Assembly (NCBI RefSeq): GCF_002953255.1
Contig: NZ_CP026498.1
Coordinates: 1,783,291 to 1,847,290, forward strand
DNA: 64,000 bases
Source of the DNA: Streptomyces sp. CB01881
GTDB lineage: Bacteria; Actinomycetota; Actinomycetes; Streptomycetales; Streptomycetaceae
Direction: 5' to 3'
Part shown: one piece after another, positions 34,829 through 50,847 of the stretch
Layout of the letters: the number at the start of each line of letters is the position of its first letter
How positions within the stretch are numbered: position 1 is the first letter of the stretch
Position numbers and translations under genes: made by a program
The notes under the pieces: model-generated
Seen by the model: the letters and a program-made list of their open reading frames with translations, nothing else
The model's database searches: none
Told to the model about the DNA's origin: nothing

Positions 34829-35866
34829 GTGCGGGCGGCGCGTGCCATCTCGCTGCTGTTGCTGCTCCAGGCGCGGCGGAGCTTGACCGGGGCCGAACTG
34901 GCCGCGGAGCTGGAGGTGTCCGAGCGCACCGTCCAGCGGGACGTCCTGGCGCTGGCGGAGGCCGGGGTGCCGGTCTACGCCGACCGCGGCCGGGCCGGCG
35001 GCTACCGGCTGCTCGACGGCTACCGCACCCGGCTGACCGGGCTGGACCGGGCCGAGGCCGAGGTGCTGCTCCTCGCCGGACTGCCCGGGCCGCTCGGCGA
35101 CATGGGCCTCGACGGCCCGGCCCTCGCCGCCCGGCTGAAGGTGCTGACCGAGGTCGGCGAGGCGCCCTCCGCCGGTGCCCGGCGGTTCCACCTGGACGCC
35201 CCCGGCTGGTTCCGTACGGCGCCCGTGCCGCCGCTGCTCGCCGAGGTCTCCCAGGCCGTCTGGGGCGAGCGGCTGCTGCGGGTCCGCTACCCGCGGCGCG
35301 ACACCGAGGTGGAACGGACGCTGCGGCCGTACGGGCTGGTGCTGAAGGCGGGCACCTGGTACCTGGTCGCCGGTCCGGGCCGGTCCGGGGTCCCGCTGGT
35401 GTACCGGGTGGACCGGCTGGTCGCCGCCGAGCCGCTGGACCAGCCGTTCGAGCGGGACGGGCAGTTCGACCTCGCCGCGTTCTGGGAGGCGAAGGCGGAG
35501 GAGTTCGCCCGCTCGCTGCTGCGGGAGAGCGTGCTGGTGCGGCTCAGCCCGCTCGGCGCCGAGCGGCTGCCGCTGCTGCTGGAGCCGGTAGCCGCCCGGC
35601 AGGCACTGGCGACCGCCGGGGAGCCGGACGGCGACGGGTGGGTCACCGTCCGGCTCGGGGTCGAGTCGGCGGACGTCGCCTACGACGAGCTGCTCAGGCT
35701 CGGGCCCGAGGCCGAACTGCTCGAACCCCCGGCGCTACGGCGGCGGTTGGCCGAGGCGGCGGCCCGCACCGCGGCGCTGTACGGCGCGGCGGACCGGAAC
35801 GGCGAGGACCGGCCGGGCGAGAACCGGCCGGGCGACGACCGGAACGGCGGGGACGTTCAGCGGTAG
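34829..35866 (+). CDS. YafY-type HTH and WYL-domain transcriptional regulator
   Basis: 345 residues. The N-terminal winged helix reads VRAARAISLLLLLQARRSLT then GAELAAELEVSERTVQRDVL. The middle WYL domain has RTLRPYGLVLKAGTWYLVAG and VYRVDRLVAAEPLDQPF, and a C-terminal WCX-like part follows. Such proteins sense a ligand or nucleic acid through WYL. I start at GTG 34829, with GGAGGG 10 bases upstream, because the domain begins there; the frame stays open to GTG 34721 through a 15-bp repeat array. The last 30 residues are a repetitive NGEDRPGENRPGDDR tail. The 3' end overlaps the convergent SDR gene by 10 bases. Confidence 0.88.
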   Translation: MRAARAISLLLLLQARRSLTGAELAAELEVSERTVQRDVLALAEAGVPVYADRGRAGGYRLLDGYRTRLTGLDRAEAEVLLLAGLPGPLGDMGLDGPALAARLKVLTEVGEAPSAGARRFHLDAPGWFRTAPVPPLLAEVSQAVWGERLLRVRYPRRDTEVERTLRPYGLVLKAGTWYLVAGPGRSGVPLVYRVDRLVAAEPLDQPFERDGQFDLAAFWEAKAEEFARSLLRESVLVRLSPLGAERLPLLLEPVAARQALATAGEPDGDGWVTVRLGVESADVAYDELLRLGPEAELLEPPALRRRLAEAAARTAALYGAADRNGEDRPGENRPGDDRNGGDVQR

Positions 35867-36771
35867 CCGGCCGGGTCCAGCGGGCCGTCCGCCCCCTCGG
35901 CGTCCACCAGGTAGCTCCAGGCGTCCGGGCGGCTGCCGTCCAGGTCGGTGAAGCCGTACTCCCCGGCCAGCGCGCCGCTGGAGAGCGAGGTGCCGTTCCA
36001 GCGCGCCACCTCAAGGTCCGCGGCCAGCGCGACCACCGCGCGGCCGACGTACGCGGGCGACTCCGAGATGCCGAAGTCCGGCTGCCGCCGCGTGGCGTCC
36101 CGCCAGGTCTCCTCGGTGACCTCGAAGTGCTCCAGCATCATCTCGGAACGCATCCAGCCGGGCGTCAGCGCGACCGCCGTCGCCCCGCGCGGGGCCAGCT
36201 CGTGCCCCAGGGCGAAGGCCATCCGCAGCACCGAGGACTTGGCGACGTCGTAGAAGAAGGAGTTCCGGTAGCGGGTCGCGTTGTACTCGGCGGTGCCGTC
36301 CGTCATCTCCACCACCAGCCCGCCCGGCCGGCGCAGCAGCAGCGGCAACAGGTGGTGGCTGGTGATCGCGTGCGTCTCCACGGCCAGGCGCAGCAGGCGC
36401 AGCCCGTTGTCGAGGTCGTGCTCCCAGACCGGGCTCTCCCACTCGAAGAGCTGTTCGCCGCCCCAGATGTCGTTCACCAGGATGTCCAGCCCGCCCTGCT
36501 CGGCCTCGATCCGCTTCGCCACGGCCGCCACCTCGGCGGGCACCAGGTGGTCCGCCCGCACGGCGATCCCCCGGCCGCCGGCCGCCGTCACCAGTGCGGC
36601 CGTCTCCTCCAGGGTCTCCGGCCGCCCGTACTCCGACCGGTGCCCGCCGGCGCTGCGCCCCGTCCCGTACACCGTCGCCCCCGCGGCTCCGAGCTGCACC
36701 GCGATCCCCCGTCCGGCCCCCCGCGTCGCCCCGGCGACCAGCGCGACCTTGCCCTTGAGCGGCTGTGCCAT
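35857..36771 (-). CDS. SDR family oxidoreductase
   Basis: 304 residues, NAD(P)-dependent short-chain dehydrogenase. The cofactor motif is GATRGAGRGIAVQLG, and the catalytic Tyr-Lys pair is in FFYDVAKSS. It also has VTAAGGRGIAVRADH, and NDIWGGEQ in place of the usual NNAG. The replacement of NNAG by NDIW and a long C-terminal half are features of a subgroup with unknown substrates. ATG 36771 gives the expected N-terminus MAQPLKGKVALVAG. Convergent with, and slightly overlapping, the WYL regulator gene. Confidence 0.9.
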   Translation of the reverse strand: MAQPLKGKVALVAGATRGAGRGIAVQLGAAGATVYGTGRSAGGHRSEYGRPETLEETAALVTAAGGRGIAVRADHLVPAEVAAVAKRIEAEQGGLDILVNDIWGGEQLFEWESPVWEHDLDNGLRLLRLAVETHAITSHHLLPLLLRRPGGLVVEMTDGTAEYNATRYRNSFFYDVAKSSVLRMAFALGHELAPRGATAVALTPGWMRSEMMLEHFEVTEETWRDATRRQPDFGISESPAYVGRAVVALAADLEVARWNGTSLSSGALAGEYGFTDLDGSRPDAWSYLVDAEGADGPLDPAGYR

Positions 36772-37019
36772 GTCCTGACCTTCCGTCGTGCTTCCTTCGG
36801 CACCACCGATGCTGCCGTGCAATCCCGACACCTGCTGTCGTGATTGCACCGGAAGAAGGGGGAGCGCGTCGGGTGGCGCGGCTCGCGGGTCGTCAGGGTG
36901 GCGGTTGGTGGGCGACCAACCGGGACGCGCGTTCACCCGGCGCTCGAAAATCGATTCGATCACGACCCGGCCGGTGTGACAGGATGCCCCGATCTGTTCG
37001 TCCCGTTGGGGGGCCCTTC

Positions 37020-37943: not shown

Positions 37944-39665
37944 TCAGGTCACGTTGAGCCGGGCCGCCAGGCGCAGCAGGCCCGGGGAGAGGCGGCTCAG
38001 GAAGCGGGCCGCCTTGGCCTCGGGGGTGACCGGGACGACGGGCTTGCCGGTGCGCACCGCGTGCAGGATGGCGGCGGCGACCTTCTCGGGCGGGAAGCCG
38101 CGGCGGGCGTAGAGCTTGGCGGCGCGGGCCTGCTTGGCGGCCTGCTGGGCGGCGCTGGTCGCGGAGAAGGTCGAGGTGCGGGTGATGTTGGTGTTGACGA
38201 TGCCGGGGCAGATGGTGGAGACGCCGATGCCGTGGCCGGCGAGTTCGGCGCGCAGGCAGTCGGAGAGCATGAAGACGGCGGCCTTGCTGGTCGCGTAGGC
38301 GGTGAGCGCCTTGGACGGCAGGTAGGCGGCGGCCGAGGCGAGGTTGACGATGTGGCCGCCGGCGCCGCGGTCGGCCATCAGGGTGCCGAAGGCGCGGCAG
38401 CCGTGGATGACGCCCCAGAGGTTGACGTCCAGGACGCGCTGCCACTCCTTCTCGGTGGTCTGCAGGAACGTCCCGGAGTGGCCGATGCCCGCGTTGTTGA
38501 CCACCACGTCGGGGACGCCGTGGGCGGCGGCGACCTCCTGCGCGAAGGCGTCGACGGCGGAGCCGTCGCTGACGTCGACCCGGTAGGCGTGGGCCTGCGG
38601 GCCGATCAGGGAGGCGAGTTCGGCGGTACGGCGGGCCGCGTCGAGGTCGAGGTCGCAGACGACGACGCGGGCGCCGTCCTCGGCGAAGGCCAGTGCGGTG
38701 GCGCGGCCGATGCCGCTGCCGCCGCCGGTGACGACGACCAGCCGGCCGAGGCCGGCCTCCTCGGTGCCCCGTCCGGCGTCGACGGAAGCGGTGAACTCAC
38801 GGACCATGCCGGCCACGGCGGATCCCTTCTCCAGCAGGGCGGACCAGTGGGTGGCGTGCAGCGAGCGGCGGGTCAGCCTGGGCACCCAGCGCTCCAGGCC
38901 CTCGGAGAGGAACCCGCCGACGTAGTGGTCCTTGGTCAGGGTGATCAGCTGCACCGGCACCTCGGTGGGCCGCTCGCGCGGGTTGCGCAGGGTGGGCCGC
39001 ATGTTGGCGCGGTACAGCTCGATGCCGCGCACCGCGTCCCGGCGCAGGGTGGGCTGCGGGTGGCCGGGGCGCGGGGTGACCTCCTCCAGGTCGCGCAGCA
39101 CCCGGCCCCAGGCGCGGGCCAGGCCGAGCCGCCATATGCCGGGGGCGAGGTAGGGCAGGTGGAAGGCGGTGATGTACCAGGAGTGGACGCCCTGGGAGAG
39201 CAGCTGCTTCAGGTGGCGCGGGGTGGGACGGCGGTAGCGGTCGCGCAGCCAGTGCCCCATGTGGTCGAGGCAGGGCCCGGACATGGTGGTGTACGACGCG
39301 AGCCGCTGCTCGGCGCCGGGCGAGGTGACGGCCTCCCAGGACTGCAGCGAGCCCCAGTCGTGGGCGACCACGTGCACCGGGCGGTCCGGGCTGACGGCGT
39401 CGGCGACCGCGAAGAGGTCGGCGGCGAGGTGCTCCAGCCGGTAGCCCTCGCGGGAGGCGGGCACGCCGGACTCGCCGGCGCCGCGCACGTCGTAGCGGAC
39501 GACGTGGTGGTCGCGGGCGAGGTCGGCGGCGACGTCGTCCCAGACCACGTGGGTGTCCGGGTAGCCGTGCACCAGGAGGACGGTGGGTGCGGCCGGGTCG
39601 CCGTCCTCGAAGACGGCGAGCGGGAGCCCGCCGGAGTGGACGGTCCGGCGGCGGGTGGTCGTCAT
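37944..39665 (-). CDS. Epoxide hydrolase-like/SDR fusion protein (EphD-type)
   Basis: 573 residues with two enzymes in one chain. Residues about 1-270 are an alpha/beta hydrolase of the epoxide hydrolase type: LLVHGYPDTHVVWDDV, the nucleophile Asp in VAHDWGS and the catalytic His in HATHWSALLEKG. Residues about 300-573 are a complete short-chain dehydrogenase: VTGGGSGIGRATALAFA, VVNNAGIGHSG and the Tyr-Lys pair in AYATSKAAV. Mycobacterial EphD has the same build. A natural sequence would be opening an epoxide to a diol or alcohol and oxidising it. The start overlaps the M24 gene stop as ATGA. Last gene of a four-gene operon. Confidence 0.9.
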   Translation of the reverse strand: MTTTRRRTVHSGGLPLAVFEDGDPAAPTVLLVHGYPDTHVVWDDVAADLARDHHVVRYDVRGAGESGVPASREGYRLEHLAADLFAVADAVSPDRPVHVVAHDWGSLQSWEAVTSPGAEQRLASYTTMSGPCLDHMGHWLRDRYRRPTPRHLKQLLSQGVHSWYITAFHLPYLAPGIWRLGLARAWGRVLRDLEEVTPRPGHPQPTLRRDAVRGIELYRANMRPTLRNPRERPTEVPVQLITLTKDHYVGGFLSEGLERWVPRLTRRSLHATHWSALLEKGSAVAGMVREFTASVDAGRGTEEAGLGRLVVVTGGGSGIGRATALAFAEDGARVVVCDLDLDAARRTAELASLIGPQAHAYRVDVSDGSAVDAFAQEVAAAHGVPDVVVNNAGIGHSGTFLQTTEKEWQRVLDVNLWGVIHGCRAFGTLMADRGAGGHIVNLASAAAYLPSKALTAYATSKAAVFMLSDCLRAELAGHGIGVSTICPGIVNTNITRTSTFSATSAAQQAAKQARAAKLYARRGFPPEKVAAAILHAVRTGKPVVPVTPEAKAARFLSRLSPGLLRLAARLNVT

Positions 39666-40609
39666 CGGGTCGCCTCCTGGGCGGTCTCGGGGTCGGCGGC
39701 CGCTGCCGCGGTCAAGGGATCCGCCGCGGTTCCGGCCGCTGCCGCCGCCGTCCAGCGGCGGACGTGCGGCAGGTCGTCGTCGAGCCAGTAGGCGTCGTCT
39801 TCGGTGACCACGAGCAGCTCCTCGAACTTGATGCCCACCTCGCGGAACCCGATGTGCGGTTCCACCGCCCACAGGCCCGGGGTCGGCGCGTGCCGGGACG
39901 CCCGTCCGTCCGCCCAGAGCGGCGAACGGCCGTGCAGGCGCTCGCTGATCAGCTCGCGGCCGAGCGTCTGGAGTGTACGCACACCGAAGCCGAAGAGGTT
40001 GACCCCGGCCGGGCCGCGGGCGGTCGTCCGGGTCACCTGGTGACCGATCACCCGGCCCGGGTAGACCTGGTGGCGGTTGTCGTAGCCGTGCGCGGCGATC
40101 TGCGCGTCCACCGCCGCGTACACCTCGTCGAGCGGCCTGCGGGCGCGGACCTCGGCGAGGATCAGTTCGCGGTACACCCGGAGGTCGGCGGCGAGCCGGT
40201 CCCAGACCCGGTTCTCGCCGACCTTGCCGCCGTAGCCGATGTCGGCGGTGTAGCCGTCCACGACCGGGGCGCAGTCCAGCACGTACGGCATGCCCTCCTC
40301 CAGCCGGCGGCCGCCGGCGAAGAACTGGAGCGGGGTGTGGAAGTGCCGGAACGCCGTCCGGTCGCCGAACCAGGCGAACGGGACGTGGAAGAAGTCCTGC
40401 ACGCCGGCGGCGACCAGGCAGCGGCGCAGCTTGGCGGTGGCCTGGCGCTCGGTGACGCCCGGTTCGATCCAGGCGGCGACCTGCTCGGCGCAGTGGTAGG
40501 CGAGCTGCTGGGTCTCCCGGAACCGGGCGAGGTCGTGGTCGGTGTACGGGAAGGCGGGCCGGGCCGTGGCCGTGGCCGACCTCCCCGCCGTCGCGGGCTT
40601 CGTGGTCAT
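39662..40609 (-). CDS. M24 family metallopeptidase-like protein
   Basis: 315 residues of the creatinase/aminopeptidase P fold. The five expected metal ligands are visible: the two Asp in LDCAPVVDGYTADIG, His in RVIGHQV, Glu in AVEPHIG and Glu in KFEELLVV. An N-terminal creatinase domain is absent, so it is a stand-alone catalytic domain. The residues around the usual substrate-binding His (FFHVPFAWFGDRTAFRHFH) are unusual, so it may act on something other than an Xaa-Pro peptide. GGAGCCCCCG precedes the ATG at 40609. Coupled by ATGA to the EphD-type gene. Confidence 0.85.
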   Translation of the reverse strand: MTTKPATAGRSATATARPAFPYTDHDLARFRETQQLAYHCAEQVAAWIEPGVTERQATAKLRRCLVAAGVQDFFHVPFAWFGDRTAFRHFHTPLQFFAGGRRLEEGMPYVLDCAPVVDGYTADIGYGGKVGENRVWDRLAADLRVYRELILAEVRARRPLDEVYAAVDAQIAAHGYDNRHQVYPGRVIGHQVTRTTARGPAGVNLFGFGVRTLQTLGRELISERLHGRSPLWADGRASRHAPTPGLWAVEPHIGFREVGIKFEELLVVTEDDAYWLDDDLPHVRRWTAAAAAGTAADPLTAAAAADPETAQEATR

Positions 40610-40619
40610 CGGGGGCTCC

Positions 40620-41708
40620 TTAGACGTCGAGCACGAGGGTCTCGCCCTCGGCGGCCCGGGAGACGCAGGGCAGCAGGGCGCCGGCGGCGCGCTGCTCGGG
40701 GGTGAGGCGGCGGTCGCGGTGGTCGGGGGTGCCGGCCAGCAGCCGGACCTCGCAGGTGCCGCAGAACCCCTGGTGGCAGGAGTACGGGAGGTCGGGGCGG
40801 GCCTCGCGGAGCACGTCCAGGGCGGGACGGTCGGCGGGCACGTCGAGCGCCGGGCCGTCCGCGCCGAGGCGGACGGTGAACGGCTCGCCGCCGGTGACCG
40901 GGGCGGCGCCGAACCGCTCGAAGTGCAGGGCGGTGGCGGGCGACCCGTCCAGCGCCCGCTGGACGGCGGCCAGCATCGGTGCCGGGCCGCAGCAGTAGAC
41001 GGCGGCGCCGCGCGGGGCGTGCGCGAGCAGCTCGGCGCCGGTCGGCACGCCGCCGTGCTCGTCGTCGGTGCGCAGGTGGACCCGGCGGGGGTCGAGGGCG
41101 CGCAGCTCGTCCGCGTACGGGAGGGTGCCGGCGCTGCGGCCGACGTGGACGAGCCGCCAGTCCAGGCCGTGGCGCTGCGCCTCGCGGGCCATCGGGAGCA
41201 GCGGGGTGACGCCGATGCCGCCGGCCAGCAGCAGGACGGCCGGCTCGGCGCAGAAGGCGAAGCCGTTGCGCGGGCGGCGGGCGGTGAGGCGGGTGCCGGG
41301 GTGCAGCGTGTCGTGGATCTCGACCGAGCCTCCGCCGCCCTCCGGCAGCCGGCGTACGGCGATCCGGTAGGCGGTGTGGTCGGCGGGGTCGCCGCAGAGC
41401 GAGTAGTGGCGTTCGCGGCCGGACGGGAGCGCGAGGCGCAGGTGCGCACCGGGCTGCCAGGCCGGGAGCGGGCCGCCGGAGGGGTCGGACAGTGTCAACT
41501 CGACGACGCCGGCGGCGACCTGGCGGCGGGCGGTGACCACCAGTTGCAGCGGCGGGGTGGGGCGGCCGGGCGGGCGGCGGGGGCTGCGGCGCAGCAGCGG
41601 GGCGCCGAGGGCGGGGCTGTAGCGGTCGCCGAAGGCGGTGAGGCGCTGCATGAACCGGTCGGCGCGGGGGCGGCCGTAGAGGTCGGGGGGCGGGTTGTGC
41701 AGGTCCAT
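40620..41708 (-). CDS. Ferredoxin reductase of the PDR/VanB class (flavin, NAD and 2Fe-2S domains)
   Basis: 362 residues. Order of domains: a 50-residue leader, a flavin-binding barrel with RHYSLCGDP, a NAD-binding domain with LLAGGIGVTPLLPMA and AAVYCCGPAPMLAAV, then a C-terminal plant-type 2Fe-2S domain with CHQGFCGTCEVRLLAG and a final Cys. This is the layout of reductases that feed Rieske or diiron oxygenases. Its neighbour upstream has a diiron motif, and I infer that it delivers electrons to that protein. Only 10 bases separate it from the M24 gene. Confidence 0.92.
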   Translation of the reverse strand: MDLHNPPPDLYGRPRADRFMQRLTAFGDRYSPALGAPLLRRSPRRPPGRPTPPLQLVVTARRQVAAGVVELTLSDPSGGPLPAWQPGAHLRLALPSGRERHYSLCGDPADHTAYRIAVRRLPEGGGGSVEIHDTLHPGTRLTARRPRNGFAFCAEPAVLLLAGGIGVTPLLPMAREAQRHGLDWRLVHVGRSAGTLPYADELRALDPRRVHLRTDDEHGGVPTGAELLAHAPRGAAVYCCGPAPMLAAVQRALDGSPATALHFERFGAAPVTGGEPFTVRLGADGPALDVPADRPALDVLREARPDLPYSCHQGFCGTCEVRLLAGTPDHRDRRLTPEQRAAGALLPCVSRAAEGETLVLDV

Positions 41709-41767
41709 CCGGCGGGGTCCTTGGGGTCCTGGGGCGACGGGCGGGGGCGGGGGCGGGCTGCGGTCCG

Positions 41768-42682
41768 TCAGCGGCCGGCGGCGGCGCGGGCGGCCGGGGA
41801 GGTGGCGAGGTAGCCGAGGGCCTGGCTGGAGGAGCCCTCCTGGGTGGGGTGGTAGCCGGGCCGCAGGTAGCGCAGGCCGGAGCGGACCGACCTGAGCGGG
41901 TCGGGCAGCAGGCCGCGCCGGGCGATCCGGCCGGCCTCCCGCCAGCTGGGCCGCAGCCGGCCGTCCAGGGTCGGGTCGGCGGCCAGCAGGAAGCGGGCGC
42001 CACGCACCCAGAGGTGGACCAGCAGCGGGCCGGAGACCGCCATGCCGCGGACCCGCCGCAGGTAGCCCGGGTCGAGGTGGACCATCAGGTCGAAGGCGAC
42101 GCTGCGGTGCTCGACCTCCTCCGCGCCGTGCCAGCGCAGCAGGTCCAGCATGGTCGGGTCGGCCTTGGCCCGGTCCAGGCCCGGGGAGTTGAGCGCCCAG
42201 TTGCCGAGGAAGGCGGTGAAGTGCTCGATCGCTGCGACGAAGGCGACCCGCTCGATGATGTTCTCGCGCCGCCGGGCCGGTGACAGCCCGGGCTTGTCGC
42301 CGAGCACGCGGCGGAACAGCCAGGAGACCTGGCGGACGTACGGGCGCGGGTCGAGGCCCTGGCCGAGCAGGTGGTCCAGCACCTCCTGGTGCGCCTCGGC
42401 GTGGATCGCCTCCTGCCCGATGAAGCCGAGCACCTCCTCGCGCAGCTGCTCGTCGCGGATCAGCGGCAGTGCCTCCTTGAACACCTTGACGAACCAGCGT
42501 TCGCCCTCGGGGAGCAGCAGGTGGAGGACGTTGACGATGTGGGTGGCCATCGGCTCGTCCGGGATCCAGTGCAGCGGCAGCCCGGCCCAGTCGAAGCGGA
42601 CGTCGCGGGGCTCCAGGACGAGGGCGTCGTGCACGCGCGCGGCGGGGGCGGCGACGGCGGGGACGGGGGTGGTGCTGGACAT
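41768..42682 (-). CDS. PF10118-type 'metal-dependent hydrolase' with ferritin-like diiron motif
   Basis: 304 residues. Automatic annotation calls the family a predicted metal-dependent hydrolase. The sequence shows E61, the pair E91-H94 in GQEAIHAEAH, E153 in AIEHF and the pair E189-H192 in EEVEH. That spacing, E then ExxH then E then ExxH, each on a predicted helix, is the signature of four-helix-bundle diiron proteins such as AurF, acyl-ACP desaturases and ribonucleotide reductase R2. With a 2Fe-2S reductase as the next gene, an oxygen-activating role is more likely than hydrolysis. First gene of the operon, behind a good promoter at 42726-42754. Confidence 0.85.
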   Translation of the reverse strand: MSSTTPVPAVAAPAARVHDALVLEPRDVRFDWAGLPLHWIPDEPMATHIVNVLHLLLPEGERWFVKVFKEALPLIRDEQLREEVLGFIGQEAIHAEAHQEVLDHLLGQGLDPRPYVRQVSWLFRRVLGDKPGLSPARRRENIIERVAFVAAIEHFTAFLGNWALNSPGLDRAKADPTMLDLLRWHGAEEVEHRSVAFDLMVHLDPGYLRRVRGMAVSGPLLVHLWVRGARFLLAADPTLDGRLRPSWREAGRIARRGLLPDPLRSVRSGLRYLRPGYHPTQEGSSSQALGYLATSPAARAAAGR

Positions 42683-42725
42683 GGGAGGGCCCTCCTGACC
42701 TGCGGTGGCGGCTCGGCTCAGGGGA

Positions 42726-42754
42726 AACGTACTCGCGGGTAGCGGTGGCGACAA
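42726..42754 (-). promoter_or_regulatory. Promoter of the diiron/reductase operon
   Basis: Minus-strand TTGTCG (42749-42754), a 17-base spacer and TACGTT (42726-42731). Predicted start about 37 bases before the ATG. Upstream, CTTAT/ATAAG arms (42769-42773, 42788-42792) flank a TCGA-CA-TCGA palindrome, a possible regulator site. Confidence 0.65.
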
Positions 42755-42927: not shown

Positions 42928-43707
42928 TCAGACCGCCATCGCCAGCATCAGCGGCGCCGCCCGGGCCGCCAGCAGCTCGGCGGCCGCCTTCAGCCGGTGC
43001 ACGTTGTCCACCGGCATCGAGGTGGCCAGGCAGCCGACCGTGCTGCCGGCCATCACCGGGACGGCCGCGCAGACGGTGCCGAGCGCGTACTCCTGGATGT
43101 CCAGCACCGGCACGGTGGCGGGCTGGCGCTCCAGCCGGTGCATCAGCTGGTCGGCGTCGGTGACCGTCCGCGAGGTGAGCCTGGCCACCGGGTGCCGGGA
43201 CAGGTGGTCCCGGCGGGCGTCGTGGTCGAGCTGGCTCAGCAGGCACTTGCCGATCGCACTCGCGTGCGCGGTGGCCCGGAAGTCCACCCACTCCTGCACG
43301 GCCGGCGCGTGGTCGGCGGCCGAGACCGCCTCCACCGACAACTCGCCGTCGTGGTACCGGGTGAAGTACACTGCGGCACCCAACTCGTCGCGCAGATCGG
43401 CGAGTTTGCGGTCCAGCCGGGCGCGCACCAGCTGCTCCCGGTTGTACTGCCCGAGCAGCGCGAAGGTGCCGCCGAGCACCCAACCGCCGTCCTGGCACTG
43501 GAGATAACCCTCGATCTCAAGGATCTCGGCGAGCCCGCGAACCGTCGACAGGCTCAGGGACGTCTCCCTGGCGAGGGAGACCAGGGTGGCACCGCCGGGG
43601 TGCCGGTCGACGGCCTCCAGCAGTCTGAGGGCGTACTGCAAGGAGGTGAACGGACCGGGCGTGCCCCGGTCCAGTGCGGCGTGACGACCCGGGGCTGGTG
43701 TCGACAT
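42928..43707 (-). CDS. IclR family transcriptional regulator
   Basis: 259 residues. The N-terminal winged helix reads ALRLLEAVDRHPGGATLVSL then ARETSLSLSTVRGLAEILE. The C-terminal effector domain contains the family phrases AHASAIGKCLLSQL, YALGTVCAAVPVM and GCLATSMPVDNV. It differs from the AllR-like protein at 62.8 kb. It precedes the diiron/reductase operon on the same strand and is the most likely local regulator of it, but this is inferred from position only. Confidence 0.9.
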   Translation of the reverse strand: MSTPAPGRHAALDRGTPGPFTSLQYALRLLEAVDRHPGGATLVSLARETSLSLSTVRGLAEILEIEGYLQCQDGGWVLGGTFALLGQYNREQLVRARLDRKLADLRDELGAAVYFTRYHDGELSVEAVSAADHAPAVQEWVDFRATAHASAIGKCLLSQLDHDARRDHLSRHPVARLTSRTVTDADQLMHRLERQPATVPVLDIQEYALGTVCAAVPVMAGSTVGCLATSMPVDNVHRLKAAAELLAARAAPLMLAMAV

Positions 43708-44038
43708 GTCGTCCCCTTCCGATGTCCGCCCGCGGAGCGACCTGCGGGCGCCTCCAGCCTAGCCACCCCGGGGGCCCGGCAGTTGCCGTCCGCGAATATT
43801 CGGTGAAGGTGCTGGACGGGCCCAAGGGCCGCGTGCTTCGCACGGGACCGGCGGACGCCCCCGGGGACTCCCGCGAACGGCGCCCGTCGGCCCCTGAACG
43901 CGGACCGGCGGGCCCCGACCGGCGGCACCGTCCCGGACGACGGAACGGGCCCCTCCCCCACTGCCCTGGGGGGAGAGGCCCGGTCGCGCCCGCCGGGGTA
44001 CGGGCCCCGGCGGCCGGTGAGGGTGGCCAGGCGGGACG
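43708..44038. other. Intergenic region between catalase and IclR genes
   Basis: 331 bases without a credible gene. The catalase-side part contains its terminator (listed separately); nothing else specific is seen. Confidence 0.5.
43946..43982 (-). terminator. Catalase gene terminator
   Basis: CGGGCC-C-CTCCCCC on the left pairs with GGGGGAG-A-GGCCCG on the right, 13 bp and one mismatch, about 55 bases beyond the catalase stop. Confidence 0.7.
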
Positions 44039-45499
44039 TCAGCCCTCGTCGCCGGAGCGCAGCTTGGCGACGGCGGCCTCCAGGCGGGCGCCGTACTCCT
44101 CGTCGGCGGCGTGGAAGTGGGCGAGGTTCTTCTCGACGATGTCGTCGCGCGAGACCTGCGCCAGGAAGCCCGCGATGTTGTTGATCAGTCGGGTCTTCTC
44201 TCCGGCCGACATCAGGCGGTAGAGCTCACCGGCCTGGAAGAAGTCGTCGTCCTTGGTGTGCGCCGGCGTGGTGTAGGTGCCGGTGTAGCCGTCCAGCCCG
44301 ACCGGCGCGGCGAGCGCGCTGTCGGTCTGGGCGGGGCCGTCGTACGAGTTGGGCTCGTAGTTCTTGCCGCGGCCGGACTTGTTGACGGCGGAGAAGCCGT
44401 CACGGCCGTAGTTGTTCGCCTCGGTGGCCCGGGGGGCGTTGACGGCGAGCAGGGTGTGGTTGACGCCGAGGCGGTAGCGCTGGGCGTCGGCGTAGGCGAA
44501 CAGGCGGCCCTGGAGCATCTTGTCCGGGGACGGGCCGATGCCGGGCACGAAGTTGTTCGGCGAGAACGCGGACTGCTCGACGTCGGCGAAGACGTTCTCG
44601 GGGTTGCGGTTCAGCACCAGGCGGCCGACCTTCACCAGCGGGTAGTCGGCGTGCGGCCAGACCTTGGTGAGGTCGAACGGGTTGAAGCGGTAGTCCGCGG
44701 CCTCCGCGACCGGCATCAGCTGGACGTAGAGGGTCCAGGACGGGAAGACACCGCGCTCGATGGCCTGGTGCAGGTCGCGCTGGTGCGAGTCGGCGTCGGC
44801 GCCGAGCACCTCGGCGGACTGGTCGCCGTCCAACGAGCGGACGCCCTGGTTGGTCTTGAAGTGGTACTTCACCCAGAAGGCGTCGCCCTGCTCGTTGACC
44901 CACTGGTAGGTGTGCGAGCCGTAGCCGTTCATGTGGCGGTACGAGGCCGGGATGCCGCGGTCGCCGAAGAGCCAGGTGATCTGGTGGGTGGAGGCCGGCG
45001 AGTGGGCCCAGAAGTCCCAGACGTTGTCGGCCTCCTGGATGCCGGTGTACGGGTCGCGCTTCTGCGAGTGGATGAAGTCGGGGAACTTGATCGGGTCCTT
45101 GATGAAGAACACCGGGGTGTTGTTGCCGACGAGGTCGTAGTTGCCCTCCTCGGTGTAGAACTTCACCGCGAAGCCGCGCGGGTCGCGGACGGCGTCGCTG
45201 GAGCCCAGGTTGCCGGCCACGGTGGAGAAGCGGAGGAACAGCTCGGTGCGCTTGCCGACCCCGGAGAGGAAGGCGGCCTTGGTGTACTGCGAAACCTCGT
45301 CGGTCACCTCGAAGTAGCCGTACGCGCCGGAGCCGCGGGCGTGCACGACGCGCTCCGGGATGCGCTCGCGGTTGAACCGGGCGAGCTTCTCCAGGAGCTG
45401 CTGGTCCTGGATGAGCAGCGGGCCGTACTCGCCGGCCGACGCCGAGTTCTGGTTGTCGGCGACGGGCGCGCCGGACTCCGTGGTCAGGATCTTGGACAT
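44039..45499 (-). CDS. katA: Monofunctional haem catalase (clade 3 type)
   Basis: 486 residues, small-subunit catalase. The distal catalytic His53 is in RVVHARG, the Asn in [10 protein letters not shown], and the proximal haem Tyr in [23 protein letters not shown] and [11 protein letters not shown] are further family marks. It decomposes hydrogen peroxide. It lies 85 bases behind allantoicase in an allantoin operon, and the peroxide produced by urate oxidase and possibly xanthine oxidation is its obvious source. Its own GAAGGA site precedes the ATG. Confidence 0.96.
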
Positions 45500-45553
45500 G
45501 GGGGGTCCTTCGGGTGTCGATAAAGGCGTTGCGTGAAGGGTGAGGTGGCTGGC

Positions 45554-45598
45554 CTCAGGTGACGGATGCTCAGATGACGAATGCTCAGATGCCGAGCA
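45554..45598. repeat. Three 15-bp tandem repeats across the allantoicase stop codon
   Basis: CTCAGGTGACGGATG, CTCAGATGACGAATG and CTCAGATGCCGAGCA follow head to tail (plus-strand reading). The last contains the allantoicase stop (minus-strand TGA at 45585-45587). The other two put further in-frame TGA codons at 45570-45572 and 45555-45557, so three stops stand 15 bases apart. Confidence 0.9.
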
Positions 45599-46850
45599 GG
45601 CGCCAGGTGGCGGAGCGGCGGCGGGAGGAGTGCTCGCCGTCCGGGCCGTCGGCCGGCCGGAGCGCGGCGACGGCGGCGGCGGCCGTGGCCTGGTCCGCCA
45701 GCGGGCGGGCGGCGGCCAGTGCGGCGGCCTCGTCGGCGGCCAGTCCGGCCTCGGCGAGCGCCGCGACGGCCTCGGCGGCCGGGACGGCGTTGAACCAGCG
45801 CAGCGCGAGGGCGGCGCGGCCGGCCTCGGTGAGCCGGCCGGTGAGGCGGAGCCGGGCGAGGCCGCCGTCCGGGTGGACGTTGATCCGGACGTGCGTGACG
45901 GGGCGGCCGACGTCGAGCCGGAAGCGGTGGCGGGTGTCGGGCTGGAGGCGGGTGCGGGGCAGGATCTCGAACCAGCCCTCCCGGTCCTCGGACGGGTCGC
46001 CGCCCGCCGAGGCGTCGTAACCGGTCAGGTCGGCCCAGCCGGGGGCGTTGGCGACGAAATGGGTGGTGTCCACCTCGGCTGCCAGGACCTCGCCGCCCCC
46101 GGCCAGGGCGATCTGCACCCAGTCGTTGGCCTTGTCGCGCCGACGCCGGGTCTCCCAGCCCTCGCCCATGACGGAGGCGCGACCGGGAGCGTTCAGGTTG
46201 TGCGGGGAGGAGAAGTAGCGGTCGGACGCCGCCTCGGCCACGCCGCCGTACTCCTGGGCGGCCAGGTCGAAGGTGAGGCCGTCCAGTTCGCGCGGGTCGG
46301 GCAGCACCTCGCCGTGCACGCGGAGCCGGGCGACGCCGCCGTCCGGGAAGATGTTGAGGCGTACGTGCGTGAAGCGGGTGCCGTTGTCGACGGCGAACTC
46401 GTGCGCGGTGTCGCCCTGGAGCGGGGTGCGCGGCAGCAGTTCGACCCACTCGGCCGCGGCCAGCTCCTCCGGCGACGGGTGCCCGGGGACGGCCGCGGCC
46501 TCGACCGAGGCGCTCTCCGGGTAGTTGCCGGTGAAGTGCGCGGTGTCGACGACCAGCCCGCGGACGACGCCGCCGACGCCGAGCCGCACGATCGTCCAGT
46601 CGTGGTCCTCGTCGGTGGGGTGCGGCTGCTCGGCGCTGACGCCGCGGCGGCGCTTGGACTCCCAGCCGTCCATGATCTGGCCCTTGTGGCCGAAGGTGTG
46701 CGCGCGGAACTCGGCGGGCTTGGCGACCAGCAGGTTCTCCGCGTCCGCGAAGGTGTCCTCGTTGGTGGCGACGACGCCGGCGCCGAGCAGCCGGGAGGCC
46801 AGGTTGACCAGCTCGGTGAACGGAGCGCTCGGGGTGTTGACGGTGCTCAC
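45585..46850 (-). CDS. alc: Allantoicase
   Basis: 421 residues, two tandem allantoicase repeats. Each repeat shows the same phrases: [10 protein letters not shown] and [29 protein letters not shown] and [30 protein letters not shown] and [16 protein letters not shown]. It hydrolyses allantoate to ureidoglycolate and urea. The last 75 residues are an extra Ala-rich tail ([19 protein letters not shown] and on) that recalls the start of OHCU decarboxylases. GTG 46850 overlaps the allantoinase stop as GTGA, fixing the start. Confidence 0.93.
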
Positions 46851-48235
46851 TGAGACTCCTCGTGACGGGTGACCGGGCGGGTGACCGGGTGGGTGATCTG
46901 GCGGCCGAACGGCTCGGCCGTGACGTCGACGACCCGGCCGCGGAGCCAGGTCGTGCGCACGGCGCCGGTCAGCGTCCGGCCCGCGTACGGGGTGACGGGG
47001 TTGCGGTGGTGCAGCTCGGCGGCGTGCACGGCGAAGTCGGCGTCCGGGTCGAAGGTGACCAGGTCGGCGTCGTGACCGACGGCGATGGCGCCCTTGGTCC
47101 CGGTGAGGCCGACCAGGGAGGCCGGGCCGCTCGCCATCCAGCGGACGACGTCGCCGAGCGTGTGGCCGCGGCGGCGGGCCTCGGTCCAGATCGCCGGCAG
47201 GCCGAGCTGGAGGGAGGCGATGCCGCCCCAGGCGGCGGCGAAGTCGCCGCTGCCGCCGAGTTCGGGCAGCAGCTTGAGCTCGGGGGTGGACGGCGAGTGG
47301 TCGGAGACGACCGCGATGAACTCGCCGGCGGCCAGGGCCGCCCAGAGCGCGTCGCGGTTGGACTCGTCGCGGATCGGCGGGCAGCACTTGAAGGCGGTGT
47401 CGCCGTCCGGGACCTCCTCGGCCGCGAGGGTGAGGTAGTGCGGACAGGTCTCGGCGGTGACCCGGACGCCGTCCTCGCGGGCCTGGCGCAGCAGCGGCAG
47501 CACGGCGGCGGAGGAGACGTGCAGGATGTGGACGCGGGCGCCGGTGCGGCGCGCGGTGTCCAGCAGCCGGGCCACGGCCGCGGTCTCCGCGTCGGCGGGG
47601 CGGGAGGCGAGGAAGTCCCGGTAGTGGACGCCGGGCTGCTGCGGGGCGGCGGCCAGGACGGCCGGGTCCTCGGCGTGGATGATCGCCAGTGCGCCGATCC
47701 GGGCCTGCTCGGCCAGCGCGGCCTCCAGGTCGGCCTGCTCGACGTGCGGGAACTCGTCCACGCCGGAGGGCGCGAGGAAGCTCTTGAAGCCGAACACGCC
47801 CGCGCGGTGCAGCGGTTCGAGGTCGGGGACGTTGCCGGGAACGGCGCCGCCCCAGAAGCCGAGGTCGATCCAGGCCTGGCCCTCGGCGACCTTCCGCTTG
47901 GCCTCCAGGCCGTCCACCGTGGTGGTGGGCGGGACGGAGTTGAGCGGCATGTCGATCACGGTGGTGACACCGCCGGCGGCAGCGGCCCGGGTGGCGGTGG
48001 CGAAGCCCTCCCACTCGGTCCGGCCGGGCTCGTTCACGTGCACGTGGGTGTCGACCAGGCCGGGGAGCAGGGCGGTGTCGCCGAGGTCGGTCAGGTGCTG
48101 GTCGCCGGCCAGGAGGGAGCCGTGCTCGGCGATCTGCTCGATCCGCCCGTCCCGGATCAGCACGTCCGCGGGACGCTCGCCGTCCGGCAGGACCACCCGG
48201 CGGGAGCGGATCACCACGGTGTCACTGAAGGGCAT
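46847..48235 (-). CDS. allB: Allantoinase
   Basis: 462 residues of the amidohydrolase superfamily. Metal ligands are visible in [10 protein letters not shown] (HxH), [10 protein letters not shown] (carbamylated Lys), [18 protein letters not shown] and SDHSPS (Asp). It opens the hydantoin ring of allantoin to give allantoate. First gene of an operon with allantoicase and catalase, behind a strong promoter whose -35 box is covered by the shared TTCAAC-type operator. CGGAGGTCCCC precedes the ATG. Confidence 0.96.
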
Positions 48236-48305
48236 GGGGACCTCCGAAACCTGGAAGAGGGGTTGCCAGAAGAAGAGTTGAGGACTTCGTCGAAGGATTG
48301 CCCGG

Positions 48306-48336
48306 AGCCTAGGGCCGCCTTCAACAAAACGTCAAT
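48306..48336 (-). promoter_or_regulatory. allB promoter with AllR-type operator
   Basis: Minus-strand -35 TTGACG (48330-48335), an 18-base spacer and -10 TAGGCT (48306-48311). The plus-strand sequence TTCAAC-AAAAC-GTCAAT (48320-48336) covers the -35 box and is one of four similar sites at allantoin and glyoxylate genes. Confidence 0.7.
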
Positions 48337-48365
48337 GGAGGAACGTACGAGAGGCGTACGGGTCG

Positions 48366-49523
48366 TCACCGGCCCAGGAGCGCGGCCGCGAGCCGCTCCC
48401 CCGCGACCTCGGCCAGCTCGGCCGCCTTGGTCATGCTGTCCCCAGGCTGTTCGGCCAGGTCGGTGAGGGCGTAGGCGGCGGCGAACCCCGCCGCCCGCCA
48501 CTCACGCTCCGACAGCTCCAGCCGTCCTGCCACAGCGGCCACCCGAACCCCCGCCCGGGCGGCCGCCGCGGCAACTCCGGCGGGTGCCTTGCCATGGAGC
48601 GTCTGAGCGTCCAGGCAGCCCTCGCCGGTCACGACGAGGCGTGCCCCACGCACGGCCTCGTCGAAACCCAGCAGTTCGAGCATGAGCTCGATGCCGGGTC
48701 GCATGGTGGCGCCGAGCAGGGCGAGGGCGGCGAAGCCCACCCCGCCCGCGGCCCCGGCGCCGGGGGCGTCGCGGAAGTCCCGTCCGACGGCCTCGCCGAC
48801 CACGTCGGCGAAGCGGGTCAGGCCCTCCTCCAGGATCACCAGGTCGTCGCCGTCGGCGCCCTTCTGCGGGCCGTAGACGGCGGTCGCGCCGCGCGGGCCG
48901 AGCAGCGGGTTGTCCACGTCGCAGGCCACCACGACCTCGACCCCGGTGAGCCCCGCCGCCGGTGTCCCGGCGGCCAGCGGGCCGAGGTCCAGCCGGGCCA
49001 GCCGGCGCAGCGCGGCGCCGCCGGGCGGCAGCTCGGCGCCGTCGGCGTCCAGCAGCGAGACGCCCAGCGCCTGGACCATGCCCGCGCCGCCGTCGGTGCA
49101 GGCGCTGCCGCCGAGGCCGAGCACGATCCGCTTGGCACCCAGGGAGACCGCCCGACCGATCAGCTGGCCGACGCCGTAGGAGCCGGCCGCGAGCGGGGCG
49201 GCCCGGCCGCCGGGGAGGCGGGCGAGCCCGGAGGACTGCGCCAGCTCGACCACGGCGGTGTCGCCCCGGACGGCGAGCGCGGCGGCCACGGGCAGGCCGG
49301 TGGGGCCGGCCACCTTGGCCGGGATCCGGGTGAAGCCGGCCGCCAGCGCGGCGGCCAGGGTGCCCTCGCCGCCGTCGGCGACGGGCAGTTCACGGACGTC
49401 GGCGCCGGGCGCGGCGCGGCGGATGCCGGCGGCGATCCGGGCGGCGACCTCGGCTCCCTCCAGGGTGCCCTTGAACTTGTCGGGAGCTACGACCACATGG
49501 CCCTGGGCGGGGGTGGCGGGCAT
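48366..49523 (-). CDS. Glycerate kinase (GarK/GlxK family)
   Basis: 385 residues. Family marks are VVVAPDKFKGTLEGAEVA at the start, LPVADGGEGTLAAAL, IVLGLGGSACTDGGAGMVQA, VVACDVDNPLLGPRGA and GARLVVTGEGCLDAQTLHGK. It phosphorylates glycerate, the product of tartronate semialdehyde reductase, to 2- or 3-phosphoglycerate for glycolysis. It lies downstream of glxR on the same strand but 436 bases away behind a chain of hairpins, so it may have its own promoter. The ATG at 49523 begins MPATPAQGHVVV. Confidence 0.92.
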   Translation of the reverse strand: MPATPAQGHVVVAPDKFKGTLEGAEVAARIAAGIRRAAPGADVRELPVADGGEGTLAAALAAGFTRIPAKVAGPTGLPVAAALAVRGDTAVVELAQSSGLARLPGGRAAPLAAGSYGVGQLIGRAVSLGAKRIVLGLGGSACTDGGAGMVQALGVSLLDADGAELPPGGAALRRLARLDLGPLAAGTPAAGLTGVEVVVACDVDNPLLGPRGATAVYGPQKGADGDDLVILEEGLTRFADVVGEAVGRDFRDAPGAGAAGGVGFAALALLGATMRPGIELMLELLGFDEAVRGARLVVTGEGCLDAQTLHGKAPAGVAAAAARAGVRVAAVAGRLELSEREWRAAGFAAAYALTDLAEQPGDSMTKAAELAEVAGERLAAALLGR

Positions 49524-49959
49524 GGCGTGGGCCTCACTTCCGGACGGGTCTGGCGATGGTTCGTCAAGCATGTGCCCTGGCGGCCGTGGCGGCCCGGGTT
49601 CGGATGGGGGCAGCCCCCTCCCCGCCGTTCCCCTCGTCCCGCTTCCGACGTACGAGGGGCTCCCCTCGGCGAAGGAGGGGGCCGGGCGACGCGCAACGGC
49701 ACGACCGAAGTGCCCCCGACAGGGAGTGCGCGTCACCGGCTTGGACGATCGGCAGGAGGCGGATGAGCCCCAGCCCGCCTGCCGATCGGGCCTGGCCTCC
49801 TGGTGGCGCGGGCACGACCGGATAGGTACACGCCACCAGGAGGAGTCTGTGGGGCCGGGGCTTCAGCGCCCCGGCACGGGGCCGGGGCCTCACCACCCCG
49901 GCCCCGGAGGGTGTCGCGCACCGCGCGCCCGGGAAGGGCGGCGGCGGGCGACGCGTGGG
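49524..49959. other. Hairpin-rich intergenic region
   Basis: 436 bases with no credible gene and at least three strong inverted repeats in series: 49746-49756 with 49778-49788 (11 bp), 49796-49808 with 49831-49843 (13 bp, CCTCCTGGTGGCG and its complement) and 49878-49887 with 49896-49905 (10 bp, GGGGCCGGGG and its complement). They follow the glxR stop and may act as terminators, or as a structured leader of the glycerate kinase mRNA. Confidence 0.6.
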
Positions 49960-50847
49960 CTACTTGACCTCGCGGCCCGACAGCCGCTCGACGCCGCGCA
50001 GCAGCGCCGAGTGGTCCAGGGAGCCGTCGCCGTTGGCACGGGCCGAGGCGACCAGCTGGGCGACGACCGCGCCGACCGGCAGGGCCGCGCCCACGGCGCG
50101 GGCGGCGTCGGTGACGATGCCCATGTCCTTGTGGTGCAGGTCGATGCGGAAGCCGGGGGCGAACTCGCGGCCCAGCATGTTCGCCTTCTTGCGGTTGAGC
50201 ACGGTGGAACCGGCCAGGCCGCCGCCGAGCACGTCCAGCGCGGCGGCGAGGTCGACGCCGGCGTTCTCCAGGAAGACCACGGCCTCGGCCAGGACCTGGA
50301 TGTTGACGGCGACGATCAGCTGGTTGGCGGCCTTGACGGTCTGGCCGGCGCCGGCCGGGCCGACGTGGACGACCGTGGTGCCCAGCGCGTCGAACAGCGG
50401 CTTCGCCTCGGCGAAGTCCTCGGCGGCGCCACCGACCATGATCGACAGCACGGCCTCGACGGCACCGGCCTCGCCGCCGGAGACCGGGGCGTCCAGGGTG
50501 CGGACGCCCTTCTCCTTGGCGGCGGCCTCGACCTTGATCGAGGTCTGCGGCGTGATGCTCGACATGTCGATCACGAGGGTGCCGGCCTTCACGTTCTCCA
50601 GCACACCGCCCTCGCCCAGGATGGCCTGCTCGACGTGCGGGTCGGCGGGGACCATCGTGATGACGACCTCGGCGTCCTTCACCGCGTCCGCGATGCTGGT
50701 CGCACCGTGGCCGCCGGCCGCGACCAGGGCGTCGATCTGCGGCTGGGTGAGGTTGTAACCGGTGACGTGGTGACCGGCCTTGACCAGGTTGGCGGCCATC
50801 GGGCTGCCCATGATGCCGAGGCCGATGAAGGCGATCTTGCGGCTCAT
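49960..50847 (-). CDS. glxR: 2-hydroxy-3-oxopropionate (tartronate semialdehyde) reductase
   Basis: 295 residues of the beta-hydroxyacid dehydrogenase family. The NAD(P) motif IAFIGLGIMGSPMAANLV opens the protein. DAPVSGGEAGAVEAVLSIMV is the substrate loop, and GQTVKAANQLIVAVN holds the catalytic Lys. It reduces tartronate semialdehyde to glycerate in the branch that recycles glyoxylate. It follows hydroxypyruvate isomerase by 61 bases. Glyoxylate carboligase, which makes its substrate, is not in this window. Confidence 0.94.
   Translation of the reverse strand: MSRKIAFIGLGIMGSPMAANLVKAGHHVTGYNLTQPQIDALVAAGGHGATSIADAVKDAEVVITMVPADPHVEQAILGEGGVLENVKAGTLVIDMSSITPQTSIKVEAAAKEKGVRTLDAPVSGGEAGAVEAVLSIMVGGAAEDFAEAKPLFDALGTTVVHVGPAGAGQTVKAANQLIVAVNIQVLAEAVVFLENAGVDLAAALDVLGGGLAGSTVLNRKKANMLGREFAPGFRIDLHHKDMGIVTDAARAVGAALPVGAVVAQLVASARANGDGSLDHSALLRGVERLSGREVK

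Follow-up and report, generated by a model that had tools for sequence, protein, structure and literature searches.

Among the ferritin-like diiron proteins described so far are the R2 proteins, R2lox and the AurF and CmlI N-oxygenases; to our knowledge, R2lox has no known dedicated reductase. Metallohydrolases of the M24 family usually cleave C-N bonds, and non-peptidase members such as creatinase, DoeA and DddP exist. The Mycobacterium tuberculosis protein EphD, a fusion of an epoxide hydrolase and a short-chain dehydrogenase (SDR), hydrolyses 9,10-cis-epoxystearic acid through its epoxide-hydrolase half, and the part played by its SDR half is unresolved (PMC7998700). Here we describe a four-gene operon from Streptomyces sp. 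CB01881 in which a putative ferritin-like diiron protein, an M24 protein and an EphD-type fusion are encoded together with a flavin/2Fe-2S reductase. The 64-kb stretch of DNA that we analysed and that contains it (the window) runs from 1.78 to 1.85 Mb in a genome of 11.3 Mb. A two-component diiron oxygenase whose product is fed into epoxide opening and then alcohol oxidation is, we consider, a fairly probable reading of the operon. The host is a soil-dwelling, Kitasatospora-like streptomycete, its best relatives in our genome collection being species of Kitasatospora and Streptomyces.

Gene order and family assignments

The four genes, named g1 to g4 in the order of transcription, are as follows.

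42682-41768, minus strand: g1, PF10118 ('Metal_hydrol'), a ferritin/R2-like diiron protein and proposed oxygenase component, 304 amino acids (Pfam, invariant ligands, fold model)
41708-40620, minus strand: g2, a reductase of the phthalate dioxygenase reductase (PDR)/VanB type with flavin, NAD(P) and C-terminal 2Fe-2S domains, 362 amino acids (match to 2pia, invariant motifs)
40609-39662, minus strand: g3, an M24-family (pita-bread) metallohydrolase without an N-terminal domain, 315 amino acids (PF00557 at 1.6e-21, invariant ligands)
39665-37944, minus strand: g4, an EphD-type fusion of an N-terminal epoxide hydrolase and a C-terminal SDR, 573 amino acids (NF004514)

The intergenic distances are 59 bases (g1/g2), 10 bases (g2/g3) and -4 bases (g3/g4), and the overlap between g3 and g4 is ATGA, a type usual for coupled translation. 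The gene coordinates, read on the minus strand, bear out the order and spacing given in an earlier interpretation of this DNA from its letters alone (the sequence-only reading), as do profile matches for the families it named for g2, g3 and g4 (Fer2/NAD reductase, M24 and EphD/PRK05855 fusion).

PF10118 as a predicted ferritin-like dimetal protein

The g1 protein matches PF10118 ('Predicted metal-dependent hydrolase') with 256.7 bits against a cut-off of 33.2, over profile positions 2-246 of 247. This was the sole match in a Pfam scan, which returned neither PF11583 (the AurF family) nor PF00268 (R2). In an alignment of 22 PF10118 proteins with identities down to 22%, 13 residues are completely invariant: E61, F87, Q90, E91, H94, H98, E153, W184, H185, E188, E189, E191 and H192. 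These include every member of the E, ExxH, E, ExxH pattern (E61, E91, H94, E153, E189 and H192) that the sequence-only reading had taken for a diiron signature. His 185 is a seventh ligand candidate, absent from that reading; with Glu 189 and His 192 it gives the motif HxxxExxH, as in the AurF-family N-oxygenases.

An AlphaFold model of g1, made from the 22-protein alignment, has a mean pLDDT of 91.7. The earlier interpretation had staked its diiron assignment on the predicted fold, and the model is a confident one of R2/CmlI type that places the ligand candidates E61, E91/H94, E153 and E189/H192 on its four core helices (44-74, 78-107, 135-164 and 176-203, respectively). R2 proteins and CmlI were the best matches to the model in a Foldseek search of the PDB. 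Structural alignment with VIA gave Z values of 14-15 over 230-254 residues, higher than the value of up to about 13 that is possible for any helical bundle, and the 50 entries listed were R2, R2lox and CmlI. Profile-profile alignment placed E91/H94, E153 and E189/H192 on the matching ligands of R2, with five of the six ligand positions aligned, and placed all seven candidates on the ligands of the AurF family. A search of PDB sequences with the g1 profile returned only BesC (4-chloro-allylglycine synthase), at E=1.3, and a spurious match to lysozyme.

Because the proposed ligands are invariant, the model is R2-like and the profile alignments set ligand on ligand, we conclude from alignment and prediction that PF10118 is a family of ferritin/R2-like dimetal proteins and that the 'hydrolase' in its name is a misnomer. 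Many Acinetobacter plasmids carry a more distant PF10118 gene (30% identity). The example that we read (L157 6983-10472) has it next to genes for a TetR regulator, a protein with a BtrH domain and two thioesterases of the PaaI type, with a P450 system nearby.

Active sites of the reductase, the M24 protein and the fusion

The g2 protein contains Fer2 and NAD_binding_1 domains, has PaaE-like similarity and matches phthalate dioxygenase reductase (2pia) with E=5e-59. Its RxYS flavin motif (R100, Y102 and S103) is invariant, as are the four cluster cysteines C311, C316, C319 and C348. The metal ligands of g3 (D112, D123, H190, E250 and E263/E264) are likewise invariant and make up the complete D, D, H, E, E set of the M24 family. 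A low-confidence model of g3 (pLDDT 60) gave Foldseek matches to an Xaa-Pro peptidase (E 1.8e-10) and to prolidase/MetAP folds (E about 1e-10).

The EphD/PRK05855 profile (NF004514) matches g4 over residues 6-571 with 827.8 bits, against a cut-off of 455. In the hydrolase half, the HGxP motif (H33-G34-x-P36), the nucleophile D103 in HDWG, the cap tyrosines Y164 and Y218, D246 and the histidine of an HW motif are all conserved; one row of this comparison, an SDR from L165 included by mistake, was disregarded. Since the HGxP motif, the aspartate nucleophile, the two cap tyrosines and the Asp/His pair are kept, the N-terminal half of g4 is, judged by its residues, an epoxide-hydrolase site and not that of an esterase. 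Both TGxxxGIG and YxxxK can be read in the SDR half.

Co-conservation across genomes

We examined the 80 closest GTDB-species relatives of g1, a sample of about 16 genera that is biased to near kin, and in all 80 the reductase is beside g1 on the same strand. An epoxide hydrolase, with or without the SDR half, adjoins g1 in 29 of these relatives and an M24 gene in seven. A class-wide draw of 16 g1-subfamily loci, for which closeness was not a criterion, contained the reductase in 12 and the hydrolase in eight, with neither in two.

Of 150 Streptomycetaceae genomes, 118 have g1; the specific M24 is found in 93, every one of which also has g1. Outside the own genus the co-occurrence has a Fisher p=8e-13, a value made optimistic by the relatedness of the genomes. 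In 77 of these 93 genomes the M24 gene shares the strand of g1 and is no more than 6 kb from it, in two arrangements: downstream of g1, which is the order in the window (47 genomes), or 2.6-2.9 kb upstream, as M24-EphD-g1 (30 genomes). It is unlinked to g1 in the other 16, and in the three that we inspected (G057, G101 and G039) an M24-EphD pair occurs elsewhere in the genome.

The same genes are also found together on more distant replicons. The mobilizable Dietzia kunjamensis plasmid pDK313-58 carries M24, EphD, g1, g2 and a TetR gene consecutively, and an Embleya megaplasmid has the complete set in the gene order of the window. In Burkholderia stagnalis the arrangement is M24-EphD-g1, and EphD adjoins g1 in four of four matched Burkholderia replicons. 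The four families, whose co-conservation the sequence-only reading had left as a test, are thus strongly co-conserved, in several gene orders and in two phyla. A shared pathway would be expected to leave such a pattern, with the genes repeatedly linked anew in different orders and in different phyla. In Streptomyces shenzhenensis (L094 10001-11953), g1 and g2 occupy one open frame of 650 amino acids; the end of the g1 part diverges as though by frameshift, and we have not relied on this locus, which could be a real fusion or a frameshift.

Proposed pathway

In the pathway that we propose, electrons from NAD(P)H would pass through the flavin and then the 2Fe-2S cluster of g2 to a carboxylate-bridged diiron site in g1. 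Reduced g1 would then activate O2 and put oxygen into a hydrophobic substrate, most likely by turning a C=C bond of a fatty-acyl-like chain into an epoxide. Hydrolysis of this epoxide by the first half of g4 would give a vicinal diol, one alcohol of which the SDR half would oxidize to a ketone. The M24 protein would hydrolyse a bond, probably C-N, in a precursor of the substrate or in the product. The sequence-only reading had likewise put oxygen insertion into an unsaturated lipid or aromatic substrate before epoxide opening and alcohol oxidation, with the M24 protein releasing or processing the product. The sequences and the gene linkage uphold the core of that scheme, an oxygenase with a dedicated reductase and a genuine epoxide-hydrolase site; its other parts, namely that epoxidation comes first, that the substrate is a lipid or an aromatic compound and that M24 releases the product, we infer.

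A fatty-acyl substrate is hinted at, by analogy, by the EphD literature and by a neighbouring gene in two Mycobacterium species. There, a multidomain protein with AMP-binding and NAD_binding_4 (thioester reductase) domains, resembling a fatty-acyl-AMP ligase, is encoded directly upstream of g1-hydrolase-g2 (L128 8310-12920 and L130 8879-12118), which suggests a small lipid biosynthetic cluster.

Several observations weigh against the proposed pathway. The Foldseek E-values of g1 are weak (about 0.01-0.1, the best being 0.014), and the profile-profile probabilities are low, at 35% against R2 and 5% against AurF. The more distant PF10118 clades have no reductase. Some Streptomyces have EphD-like genes without g1, and many others have just g1, g2 and TetR, with no adjacent epoxide hydrolase. 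The fatty-acyl ligase link occurs in only two of 101 Mycobacteriaceae genomes, and for this reason we rejected it as general evidence for a fatty-acyl substrate and keep it as a lead.

Alternative explanations

The module may degrade or detoxify hydrophobic foreign compounds rather than build or remodel a cell lipid, a possibility that we take seriously while thinking it unlikely. A catabolic role is hinted at by the KshA-like Rieske oxygenase and FMO/BVMO-like genes near g1 in mycobacteria and Haloechinothrix, and the mobilizable Dietzia plasmid and the variety of local regulators (IclR, TetR and MerR, differing among loci) are in keeping with it. However, g1 is present in 39 of the 39 listed genomes of the same genus (the source genome included), a spread seldom seen in an accessory catabolic trait, and the operon contains no uptake or ring-cleavage genes.

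A doubtful alternative concerns the chemistry of the first step: instead of an epoxidase, g1 and g2 could make up a diiron enzyme that hydroxylates or desaturates, with the SDR oxidizing the new alcohol and the epoxide-hydrolase domain serving a side product or the epoxide of another enzyme. Loci with g1 and g2 but no hydrolase are common. The FMO/BVMO-like proteins beside some g1-g2 pairs, in one case with an SDR adjoining the FMO, would fit hydroxylation, ketone formation and Baeyer-Villiger oxidation in turn, and ferritin-like acyl-ACP (acyl carrier protein) desaturases appear at rank 50 of the Foldseek list. Epoxidation is favoured by the g4 hydrolase, which keeps the aspartate nucleophile and the two cap tyrosines typical of epoxide hydrolases, and by the recurrence of a hydrolase beside g1 in both actinobacteria and Burkholderia.

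An N-oxygenase role for g1 like that of AurF or CmlI, with an amine substrate that M24 frees from an amide or peptide, is improbable. In its favour, H185-E189-H192 repeats the HxxxExxH motif seen in AurF relatives, CmlI ranks with the best structural matches (Z 14.0) and C-N cleavage would be usual for an M24 enzyme, but g1 has no PF11583 match and an epoxide hydrolase has no obvious role in such a pathway. That g1 is a metal-dependent hydrolase with neighbours assembled by chance is very improbable, since its only support is the Pfam name and annotations derived from it (for example in PLSDB), against an R2-like fold and ligand set, a reductase at every close relative (80 of 80) and an M24 that never occurs without g1.

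Promoter, putative operator and neighbouring genes

Two elements precede g1.

42754-42726, minus strand: promoter TTGTCG-N17-TACGTT, both hexamers of which are partly invariant when the upstream regions of six Kitasatospora-type loci are aligned
42792-42769, minus strand: putative operator, the 24-bp interrupted palindrome CTTATTAGACTCGATGTCGATAAG, kept 5' of g1 in Kitasatospora-type loci

The promoter had been called from the sequence, and the conservation of its hexamers in the six loci speaks for it; it is absent from the output of a strict sigma-70 consensus scan. No second match to the palindrome was found in the 11.3-Mb genome with up to three mismatches allowed. As a conserved palindrome 5' of the promoter and single in the genome, it suggests that the operon has its own control element.

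The IclR-type gene at 42928-43707, related to glyoxylate regulators, was considered as the regulator of the operon and rejected: in one locus (L056) g1 retains the palindrome, whereas the IclR homologue there is about 3 kb off and separated from it by unrelated genes. It probably belongs to the upstream cluster on the same strand (42928-50847, minus strand), which has the appearance of an allantoin/glyoxylate cluster (amidohydrolase, glycerate kinase, 3-hydroxyisobutyrate/tartronate-semialdehyde-type reductase, catalase and the IclR regulator) and is probably separate from the four-gene operon. In L058 and about 40 other loci, many of them from Streptomyces, the gene after g1-g2 encodes a TetR regulator that has a TetR_C_46 domain; a MerR regulator instead follows the M24-EphD pairs of Streptomyces. 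On the downstream side, past a convergent lipoprotein-like gene and outside the operon, is a further SDR (35857-36780, minus strand; PRK08303 type, 514.7 bits).

Novelty and implications

The sequence-only reading knew of no described pathway with this set of genes, and our literature searches on PF10118, on COG3687 and on the family names in combination turned up none; PF10118 was mentioned once, in a paper on lanthipeptide proteases. The component families are known, and neither the oxygenase assignment nor the four-part pathway was found in that literature. The case for a putative new oxygenase family is strong on genomics. We hold as about evenly balanced the wider proposition that PF10118 comprises unrecognised single-chain, two-component ferritin-like diiron oxygenases misannotated as hydrolases, which with EphD and a non-peptidase M24 form a new conserved oxidation pathway and are the missing partner of EphD-type fusions.

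Should g1 prove to be an oxygenase, the name of an entire Pfam family, with members in actinobacteria, Burkholderia, Acinetobacter and Caulobacter, would be misleading, and soluble diiron oxygenases would gain a new class that is open to testing. In that case EphD, the bifunctional mycobacterial enzyme at which urea drugs are aimed, would also gain a candidate upstream partner; its exact role has yet to be settled. The diiron-reductase part occurs in most of the Streptomycetaceae sampled, yet the pathway appears to be undescribed, and its product is directly testable.

Comparison with known systems

The arylamine N-oxygenases AurF and CmlI (PF11583) share with g1 the ferritin-like diiron fold and a ligand order (E, ExxH, E, HxxxExxH) that aligns by profile. 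They belong to another Pfam family with weak profile similarity, whereas g1 adjoins its own reductase gene and has neighbours that suggest epoxide chemistry. R2 and R2lox are the best structural matches to g1, with Z values reaching 15 over some 245 residues, although the R2 family, PF00268, has no match in g1. Two-component and multicomponent diiron monooxygenases, such as the bacterial multicomponent monooxygenases and PaaABCE, resemble the proposed system in that a flavin/2Fe-2S reductase feeds a diiron oxygenase; unlike them, the proposed oxygenase g1 is single-chain, and the operon has neither a beta or gamma subunit nor an effector protein gene. The g2 protein has the flavin-NAD-2Fe-2S domain order of the PDR family, whose characterized members work with Rieske oxygenases or fused P450s; the partner of g2 would instead be a ferritin-like diiron protein.

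The g4 protein has the same epoxide hydrolase-SDR architecture as mycobacterial EphD (Rv2214c). Work on EphD has dealt with that protein by itself and with its part in the metabolism of mycolic acids, which streptomycetes lack; the g4 fusion travels with a diiron protein and an M24 protein.

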